A DNA stretch of 64,000 nucleotides from the NCBI GenBank assembly GCA_001803235.1, contig MHBL01000140.1, forward strand, positions 1-64,000, written 5' to 3'. The notes under the pieces were generated by a model, which saw only the letters and a list, made by a program, of their open reading frames with translations, was not told where the DNA came from and ran no database searches. The position numbers and the translations under genes are program-made. Numbering within the stretch: the first letter of the stretch is position 1; the number at the start of each line of letters is the position of its first letter. The stretch is from Lentisphaerae bacterium RIFOXYA12_64_32 (lineage in GTDB: Bacteria; Verrucomicrobiota; Lentisphaeria; Oligosphaerales; YB12-FULL-65-16). Below, in pieces: positions 11,791-62,455 of the stretch.

Positions 11791-11911
11791 GGTGACTCCT
11801 CCGGGGACCGGGGCTTCCAGCCCTCTGGGCGCGGCATGTGTCTAGAACCCCTACGTATACCGCCAGCGCCGGCAGTGTCAAGCGCAGCGGCCCGGCTCGA
11901 CTGCGGGCACA

Positions 11912-12027
11912 GTGGCTCGGCGCGTCTCGCGCCGGAGCAGAGTACTCGGGGCCGTCTCGGCCCGAGTCCCTCGGCCGGGGACCGGCCCGAGTACCCCACT
12001 GCGGTCCCGGAGGTCCCGCGCCACTGC
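11912..12027 (+). repeat. Dispersed hairpin-rich repeat family, copy A
   Basis: The 116-bp core begins GTGGCTCGGCGCGT and ends CCCGCGCCACTGC. It is made of successive short palindromes and shares its plan and much of its sequence with copies at 20982, 29434 and 40065 (minus strand). This copy lacks the roughly 30-bp insert seen in the latter two. It lies between divergent genes (threonine aldolase and the CcdA-like gene). Confidence 0.8.
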
Positions 12028-14075: not shown

Positions 14076-14130
14076 TGGCGGGAGTGGCTCGCTCCCGCAT
14101 GCCGGACCGAGCCGGTCCGGCCACTTTGGG
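14076..14130 (+). repeat. Two-hairpin module shared with the inverted-repeat element
   Basis: Two adjacent hairpins (GCGGGAG...CTCCCGC, then CCGGAC...GTCCGG) end in CCACTTTGGGC. The same module is found inside the complete transposable element at 27058-27115 and in the partial copy at 15-46. Here it occurs without the element ends, so it may be a remnant or an independently spreading hairpin. Confidence 0.7.
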
Positions 14131-14238
14131 CGTGGTTGCGCATCTGAGGTGGTTAGATCGACGCTCCCTTGACGCGGAAGCGGGCGAGGGTCTTCGGCGC
14201 GCGCGCCAGGTGTGGTGTGGCGATGGCATAGGACCGTC

Positions 14239-18463: not shown

Positions 18464-18489
18464 GTGCCTCTCCTTATCCTCCCCGATTG

Positions 18490-18602
18490 GAGACGAAGAT
18501 CAGAGACAAAGACTAGAGACGAAGATCAGAGACAAAGACTAGAGACGAAGATCAGAGACGAAGACTAGAGACGAAGATCAGAGACGAAGACTAGAGACAA
18601 AG
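18490..18602. repeat. 13-bp tandem array (GAGACRAAGAYYA)
   Basis: Roughly eight and a half units of 13 bp alternate between GAGACGAAGATCA and GAGACAAAGACTA, giving a 26-bp higher-order repeat. It lies in the promoter-side gap of the DUF4838 gene. Two or three related GAGACAAAGACCCA units recur at about 32920-32955, upstream of another glycosidase gene. Confidence 0.88.
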
Positions 18603-18710
18603 GGCCACATTCCGGCCGCTCATCTTTGTCTCAGGTCTTTGTCTCTCGGCTCGGTCTTCGCCCGGGATCTCCACGTTGAAAGTGGCACTCGTCCGGGTGT
18701 GGCCGGAACA

Positions 18711-20981: not shown

Positions 20982-21177
20982 GACCTGTGCGGGGAAACCC
21001 GGCATCGCGGAAGTCCGGCCGCGGTGGCTCGGCGCGTCCCGCGCCGAAGCGAGGTGCACTGGCCGGTCTCCGGCCGAGGGTCTCGGTCCGGGACGGACCC
21101 GAGGCACCCCACTGCGGTCCCGGAGGTCCCGCGCCACTGCCTGCTCCTGCGGACGACCGGGAACGGGCGCATCGTGG
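20982..21177 (+). repeat. Dispersed hairpin-rich repeat family, copy B
   Basis: The copy starts GACCTGTGCGGGGAAACCCG, passes through the same palindromic core as copy A (GTGGCTCGGCGCGT to CCCGCGCCACTGC, 21024-21140), and ends in a segment with CGGGAACGGGCGCATCGT that is paralleled in copy C. It lies between the glycosidase and the export operon, which diverge from it. Confidence 0.82.
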
Positions 21178-21283
21178 CGCCTTTTGCACAGCCTTCTCCC
21201 TTTGTCGATCTAACAGCACAGGTCGGTTTTTTTTCCTGTTTCGGATAGGCAAACGCGGGAATTGCGTCTAATATAGCTTTATA

Positions 21284-27000: not shown

Positions 27001-27177
27001 TGAGCCCCGTAATGCGTCAGTCGCGGGTGGACGGTTGGGCGGTAGGTAGATGGCCAACGTGGCGGGAGCGGTTCGCTCCCGCGGGTGTCGGAGCGAGCCG
27101 CTCCGACCACTTTAGGCGTCAGCCCAGGTCAAACTTCGACCTTATCTCCACCCGCAACTGACGCATTACTGAGCCCC
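27001..27177. mobile_element. Complete 161-bp non-autonomous element with 8-bp target duplication
   Basis: Terminal inverted repeats of 23 bp (27009-27031 and 27147-27169, one mismatch) begin GTAATGCGTCAGT. They enclose the two-hairpin module also seen at 14076. Both sides carry the same 8 bp, TGAGCCCC, at 27001-27008 and 27170-27177. This is direct evidence of transposition. The length excludes a transposase, so an unlinked one must have moved it. It sits between the two ABC half-transporter genes. Confidence 0.92.
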
Positions 27178-29433: not shown

Positions 29434-29690
29434 GACCTGTGCGGGTAAATCCGCTCTCACGGCGAAGTGGTGTGCCCGGTTGGGGTGTGACCGGACGCGC
29501 GCCGGTTCGGCGCGTCCCGCGCCGAAGCGGGGTGCACCGGGCCGGCTCTGTCCGGCGAAGTTGCCTGGGCGAAGACGGAACCCCGGCCGCGGGCCTCGGG
29601 CCGGGACGGCCCCGAGCACCCTGCCGCGGTCCCAGAGGTCCCGCGCCACTGCCCGCCGCCGCGGACCACCACGAACGGGCACATCGTCGC
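29434..29690 (+). repeat. Dispersed hairpin-rich repeat family, copy C
   Basis: The copy starts GACCTGTGCGGGTAAATCCG right after the tRNA terminator, carries the palindromic core plus a roughly 35-bp insert (CTCTGTCCGGCGAAGTTGC), and ends in a CGAACGGGCACATCGTCGC tail. The insert is shared with copy D at 40065. Insertion next to a tRNA is notable, but no integrase is present. Confidence 0.82.
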
Positions 29691-33172: not shown

Positions 33173-33290
33173 GTGAAACTGGCAACGACGGTTCCAGAGC
33201 CCGCGAGGACGCGGGCGCTCCAAAGTCAGACCCCGTGCCAGCCCCTGGAGCGCCCGCGTCCTCGCGGGCTCTGGGCTCCTTCAGTTTCAC
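33173..33290. repeat. Nested inverted-repeat element, copy 2 (29-bp core palindrome)
   Basis: Core arms of 29 bp lie at 33194-33222 and 33246-33274 and are perfect complements. Their inner 24 bp are identical to copy 1 at 324. The outer arms GTGAAACTG (33173-33181) and CAGTTTCAC (33282-33290) differ from the outer arms of copy 1. Same core, different but still paired flanks suggest target-linked or gene-converted arms. Confidence 0.85.
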
Positions 33291-40064: not shown

Positions 40065-40305
40065 GGGCAGAAGACATCGTCGTGTGCTCGCAGCCGCGGA
40101 CAGCGCGCGGAGCGGCAGCGGCGCGGGACCTCCGGGACCGCAGTAGAGTACCTTCGGGCCGTCCCGGCCCGAGGCCCTCGGCTGGGGATCCGTCTTCGCG
40201 CGAGCAACTTCGCCGGACAGAGCCGGCCGGCGCACTCTGCTTCGGCGCGGGACGCGCCGAGACACGGGGCGAACTTCCGCGAGGTCGGATTTGCCCGCGC
40301 AGTCC
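40065..40305 (-). repeat. Dispersed hairpin-rich repeat family, copy D (minus strand)
   Basis: Read on the minus strand from 40305, this copy has the same opening (ACTGCGCGGGCAAATCCG), palindromic core, the insert shared with copy C (CTCTGTCCGGCGAAGTTGC) and the closing ACGACGATG-like tail. It lies directly upstream of the response regulator gene, so it may carry or displace its promoter. Confidence 0.82.
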
Positions 40306-61314: not shown

Positions 61315-61338
61315 GGGTGGAGGGTGGGGCGTGTATTC

Positions 61339-61363
61339 TGGAGCGCCCGCGTCCTCGCGGGCT
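61339..61363 (+). repeat. Half copy of the 24-bp palindromic repeat
   Basis: One arm only of the palindrome at 324-392 and 33194-33274 (TGGAGCGCCCGCGTCCTCGC, then GGGCT). Its partner arm is absent within 200 bp. Confidence 0.8.
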
Positions 61364-61510
61364 TAACGGTTGCCAAGTGTGCAGGTGCGTAAGGCAGAGA
61401 CGCGTCCTGCCGGGTGTTCAGGGACTGCCCCTCCCTCGACACCCGACATCCGCCCCTCGCGACCGCGGCGTCTCGAGTGGGGCAGGGCAACAGCGAGAGG
61501 TCGACGACGC

Positions 61511-62275: not shown

Positions 62276-62455
62276 CAGGCGGCCGATCGGCGCTGCCCGC
62301 GCCGATGCAAACACAGTGGCGCGGCCCGTCCCGGGCCGCAGAAGGGTGCCGCCAGGCCGTCCCGGCCCGGCGTTTCCGGCGAAGTAGTGCAAGGCTCCAG
62401 CCTTGCAGCGTGCCATTCGGGTCACGGGTGCGTGTGCGTGCGCCGGCGCCGGCGC

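Follow-up and report, generated by a model that had tools for sequence, protein, structure and literature searches.

What kind of element is the folded repeat that recurs between the genes of this stretch of DNA, and is it one element at all? A preliminary description of the window (the whole stretch analysed here, 64,000 nt) had reported a dispersed, folded repeat with kept pairing, present in four copies, placed in promoter-side or post-terminator gaps and belonging to no described family. On inspection of the sequence all four copies are present (A to D, Table 1), and so is the internal insert common to two of them, C and D (34 bp). The extent of D had to be corrected, as its element reaches about 40305, the site of its degenerate TIR. 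At copy C, a right MITE TIR was looked for and not found. The repeat is real, but its unity did not survive, as a REP core and a MITE surrounding it had been merged into one. Two other repeats of the window are recorded as observations in their own right: a 27-bp palindromic repeat, CTGGAGCGCCCGCGTCCTCGCGGGCTC, in three near-identical copies (368-394, 33245-33271 and 61338-61364), and a tandem array with a 13-bp period between two genes (18472-18614; GATCAGAGACRAA / GACTAGAGACGAA).

Table 1. Repeat features located in the window, with strand and supporting evidence (CM, covariance model)
Feature	Position	Strand	Evidence or remark
Copy A, free four-hairpin core without MITE ends, 116 bp	11911..12026	+	CM match 114 bits; no TIR nearby
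Copy A hairpin 1, preceded by GTGG foot, TCT loop	11917..11935	+	alignment A1 columns 8-26
Copy A hairpin 4, minus-strand GTGG foot, TCC loop, tandem G.A/A.G mismatch	12001..12019	-	alignment A1 columns 95-113
Copy B, core-carrying MITE, 243 bp; TIRs 20982-21001 and 21205-21224	20982..21224	+	
Copy B core, 117 bp	21023..21139	+	CM match 122.4 bits
Copy B hairpin 1, GTGG foot, TCC loop	21029..21047	+	alignment
Copy B hairpin 2, inner	21060..21076	+	alignment
Copy B hairpin 3, inner, minus-strand reading	21082..21103	-	alignment
Copy B hairpin 4, minus-strand GTGG foot, tandem G.A mismatch	21114..21132	-	alignment
Copy C left MITE TIR, identical to the consensus	29434..29453	+	directly 3′ of a T-run; tRNA and terminator-like hairpin lie upstream
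Copy C core, 34-bp insert in hairpin 2	29501..29651	+	CM match 78.6 bits
Copy D core, 34-bp insert in hairpin 2	40116..40266	-	CM match 90 bits
Copy D degenerate MITE TIR, 4 mismatches	40286..40305	-	after a TTTTC run
Fifth copy, degenerate half-element, single arm with GTGG- and GTGC-footed hairpins	62315..62418	+	CM 38.7 bits, E 3.7e-4

The core has a constant length of 116-117 nt with sharp ends, CAGTGG...CCACTG, and inserts in hairpin 2 give rise to two longer classes, one of about 150 nt and one of about 180 nt. In all aligned copies it consists of two arms in inverted orientation, each with one GTGG-footed and one GTGC-footed hairpin. In top-strand orientation, the 5′ arm runs CAGTGG, hairpin 1, AGCGGGGTGC, hairpin 2; read on the bottom strand, the 3′ arm runs CAGTGG, hairpin 4, AGTAGGGTGC, hairpin 3. 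Each hairpin is formed by a short imperfect palindrome, as in REPs, and on its own strand closes on a three-base loop, which is TCC or TCT in nearly all copies; hairpin 4 carries a tandem G.A/A.G mismatch on the strand of its GTGG foot. On both arms the outer hairpin bears a GT[AG]G foot in its GTGG form, and the inner hairpins, footed GTGC, fall outside that definition. Across copies the ends read C|[A/G/C]GTGG...CCACTG, with the preceding C present in 38 of 40 copies lacking MITE ends, and the sequence beyond this C is largely unrelated among copies, with weak remnants of shared flank in several. We counted 38 GTGG-footed hairpins in a 463-kb sample of the genome (20 regions of six large contigs plus the window), versus 1-5 for each of six other feet. 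The same sample contains 24 hairpins with a GCT loop, which represent a second GTGG REP family, AAAGTGG-CGGGAGCG-GCT-CGCTCCCG, seen in the window at 16-46, 14101-14131 and 27059-27117 and often arranged in inverted pairs about 51 bp apart, the classical REPIN layout.

How widespread is the core? Across the genome to which the window belongs (10.64 Mb in 503 contigs), a 20-mer of its tail, GGTCCCGGAGGTCCCGCGCC, has 385 matches with at most 2 mismatches; its reversed sequence, used as a control, has 1. With a covariance model derived from 53 copies, 23 loci were recovered in the 463-kb sample, window included, and whole-genome scoring returned at least 150 candidates, all with E < 1e-9. Scaled from the sample, on which copy density rests, the genome total is probably around 500 core copies. 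The search for further copies that had been proposed as a check thus succeeded, with at least 385 tail motifs genome-wide. One exact copy of the tail motif also lies in a viral contig, IMGVR_UViG_3300045996_001357 (L267:3589-3608), which may represent a phage or provirus that infects a related host; a plasmid collection searched for the repeat gave no match.

This high copy number is accompanied by an extragenic location, as in other REPs: 22 of the 23 sampled loci are intergenic, though 84% of the sequence is coding (codon-model gene prediction; binomial 5e-17). Of the earlier placement in promoter-side or post-terminator gaps, only the intergenic part holds, as the orientation of neighbouring genes matches that of all intergenic DNA, and tandem, divergent and convergent gaps are occupied by the core roughly in proportion to each one's share of intergenic DNA. 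We rejected a promoter or terminator role read from gene orientation, the bias being no greater than the make-up of intergenic DNA would give. Copies C and D look post-terminator because their MITE ends adjoin T-runs.

RAYT genes are bounded by inverted REPs (PMC2817692), and GT[AG]G feet are found across RAYT subclasses (PMC6006769). The genome contains eleven matches to PF01797 (Y1 transposase), and one of these, the RAYT P0001 (L078:1135-1779), is bracketed by cores at distances of 33 and 40 bp. Four tails lie within 3.2 kb at this gene, versus 0.16 expected from genome density (P 2.4e-5 before correction for the 11 loci). Tandem copies of hairpin 1 also occur near it. In the RAYT-adjacent copies hairpin 1, GGACCG/CGGGCC, is slightly unlike that of the genome majority, GGCGCG/CGCGCC. 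P0001 scores 84.3 against the NCBIfam model REP_Tyr_transpos (cut-off 80), and its best match among solved structures is the E. coli TnpA-REP (PDB 4er8). A second RAYT-like gene, L076, has one core copy nearby, a linkage that may be due to chance; none of the remaining PF01797 genes of the genome has a core nearby. One PF01797 gene, L072:1410-2015, is flanked by inverted copies of CCAGGGC-loop-GCCCTGG, and gene and repeats together are perhaps a separate REPtron or IS.

Is this association of gene and hairpin found elsewhere? RAYT relatives were drawn from 48 genomes of the order and from named genomes, giving 55 loci, one pair of which is the same locus (the G019 locus L239 is contained in L165), and were scanned for perfect hairpins of 7-10 bp preceded by a GT[AG]G foot, at most 400 bp from the gene. 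Such hairpins were present at 31 of the 55 loci, at 22 on both sides, versus 38 of 330 for six control feet (Fisher 1e-12); the other 24 relatives had none at this stringency. The stems vary between genomes, and the loops are mostly TCC or TCT. In the Lentisphaeria MAG JAGLDW (G019; G004 is also a Lentisphaerae MAG), the RAYT L219 (53% identity) has on its flanks 0-mismatch copies of the repeat family native to G019, GTGGTGCGGGACGTCCCGGACCGCGAG and GTGGCTCGGGACCTCCGGGACCGAGG, the second of which closely resembles the window family's hairpin 4. A RAYT gene flanked by cognate repeats is thus found at L078 and, in a second genome, at L219, and the linkage of repeat and transposase therefore extends to two genera that belong to different taxonomic families.

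We conclude, with a probability of roughly 0.87, that the core is a composite REP of the BIME/REPIN type, non-autonomous and mobilised, now or formerly, by a RAYT. Points that weigh against it are the slightly deviant hairpin 1 of the RAYT-adjacent copies, the GTGC feet of the inner hairpins, the 24 relatives at which no GT[AG]G hairpin was found, and the possible chance linkage at L076. The repeats match the recognition signal of a RAYT in the same genome, and so add a new case to a kind of miniature mobile DNA already described. By their structure, their setting in the genome and their linkage to a transposase they belong with the GT[AG]G type of REP/BIME, in place of the earlier verdict of no described family; they form a new GTGG family, probably spread by its RAYT and carried in part within a MITE. 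Characterised TnpA-REP binds single-stranded hairpins, depends on the GTAG foot, makes use of stem irregularities or loops, and cuts beside the hairpin (PMC8266576), and the window family fits every structural point of such systems. From this likeness we infer that P0001 binds, cleaves and transposes the core. The RAYT, a Y1 HUH transposase related to IS200/IS605, would have the core as its non-autonomous substrate: in single-stranded DNA, the folded GTGG hairpin would be bound by the RAYT, which would cut next to the hairpin foot; the excised unit would then be rejoined elsewhere between genes, and repeated rounds would give rise to a family of several hundred copies. We found no target-site duplication at the core alone, the 36 TIR-free copies being no better than re-paired flanks, as is expected for the HUH single-strand mechanism.

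The arms of the core differ between copies yet stay paired, as the preliminary description had claimed, and the compensatory changes that it proposed to count are in excess. Of 40 pairs, 11 changed on both sides (shuffled mean 4.0), and the cells changed on both sides number 43 (shuffled mean 15.7), with none of 500 shuffles as high in either case; slid controls gave far lower covariation than the true pairing. Much of this signal is one subfamily difference in hairpin 3, and the remaining changes are spread among hairpins 1 to 3 and the middle stem. Palindromes are prone to template-switch correction, in which a change is copied from arm to arm and mimics compensation. It is conceivable, if unlikely, that the covariation arose in this way, at replication of the hairpins, and not from selection on the fold. 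The general proneness of palindromes speaks for such an origin, and template-switch repair could be the source of part of the covariation, but it leaves the conserved feet, the TCC/TCT loops, the constant length and the RAYT linkage unexplained. It is also compatible with mobilisation of the core by a RAYT.

What, then, is the sequence around the core? The opening GACCTGTGCGGG, previously counted as part of the repeat, is instead the terminal repeat of a separate TIR element, a MITE of 222-306 bp that is accompanied by 9-10-bp duplications and that contains copies B, C and D. Genome-wide, GACCTGTGCGGGTAAATCCG has 222 matches with at most 3 mismatches, which form pairs of terminal inverted repeats, most often 222-223 bp and up to 306 bp apart. 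Exact 9-10-bp flank repeats occur at 4 of 48 rows (GAATTCCCGC, GAAATGCGGG, GAAATGTGC and ACCAAGGAG), and a flank-duplication score of at least 9 is reached by 8% of MITE pairs versus 0.04% of re-paired flanks, a pattern of target-site duplication. MITEs with the TIR GACCTGTGCGGGTAAATCC (L103, L112, L122, L247 and others) often lie beside T- or A-runs. Could the whole repeat, core included, be a TIR MITE that owes its movement to a DDE transposase? The GACCTGTGCGGG TIR near copies B, C and D and near about 30 of 70 examined copies, together with the duplications at some MITEs, would agree with this, but we consider it very improbable: 40 of the 70 copies have no TIR, many MITEs are without the core and have another AGTGG-containing hairpin pair inside, the core alone lacks a target-site duplication, and the linkage to the RAYT would be left unexplained. 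Some cores seem to have been multiplied along with the unrelated TIR MITE that holds them.

Departures from pairing are equally frequent as G.T (35 cells) and as A.C (39 cells), and therefore do not point to selection on a single RNA strand. That the core is a structured RNA, such as a regulatory or mRNA-end element under selection for its RNA fold, is scarcely credible: strong folds, compensatory changes and intergenic copies would suit such an RNA, but one acting from a single strand would be expected to show more G.U, the element comes close to self-symmetry and is matched by the covariance model on both strands, no orientation or gene context is favoured, the Rfam scan of the window placed only a tRNA above the gathering score with the repeat sequence absent from Rfam, and the hairpins change by genome along with their RAYT.

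With the window family, the RAYT-REP partnership, known in most detail from Proteobacteria, reaches a Lentisphaerae-related order, in a genome that is large and rich in repeats; we found no report of REPs in Lentisphaerae in the open-licence literature. It also provides a series of RAYTs and REPs with near-constant foot and loop and varying stems, and what RAYTs read therefore becomes directly testable. Tentatively, and with less than even confidence, we suggest that a RAYT clade spanning Verrucomicrobia, Lentisphaerae, Planctomycetes and Bacteroidota may read the GT[AG]G foot plus the TCC/TCT triloop while the stem drifts freely, and that here a four-hairpin double REPIN may both transpose and be carried along by a DDE-type MITE, so that its mobility would have two layers.

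Among known systems, the window family is most readily compared with the GT[AG]G REP/BIME/REPIN elements and their RAYTs (REPtrons; E. coli REP/TnpA-REP, Pseudomonas REPINs and Opitutus terrae), with which it shares the foot, the short hairpin and the inverted pairing (PMC2817692, PMC3733652, PMC6006769, PMC8266576), as well as hundreds of extragenic copies and a RAYT gene flanked by cognate repeats. For example, the GTAG-20 REPs of Opitutus terrae are mostly GTGG variants (PMC3733652), and an imperfect stem with a mismatch is found in the E. coli REP and in P. aeruginosa GTAG-24 (GA mismatch). Unlike these REPs, the window family is new in sequence and belongs to a Lentisphaerae-related order, each arm of its unit has two hairpins, four in all, the inner ones with GTGC feet, and many of its copies are enclosed by a TIR MITE. 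More than two hairpins per REP unit have a precedent in REP dimers whose spacers are structured, such as A. tumefaciens CGTC-3, which, like the double inverted repeats at P. putida/P. fluorescens REPtrons, combine an outer REP pair with further stem-loops (PMC3733652), although foot, sequence and host differ from those of the window family. The outer element, in turn, resembles bacterial MITEs such as Correia/NEMIS, RUP and Nezha (PMC3733652) in its TIRs, its length of 222-306 bp, its flank duplications and the lack of any noted coding capacity; unlike those MITEs, it has a REP core or a different hairpin pair between its TIRs.
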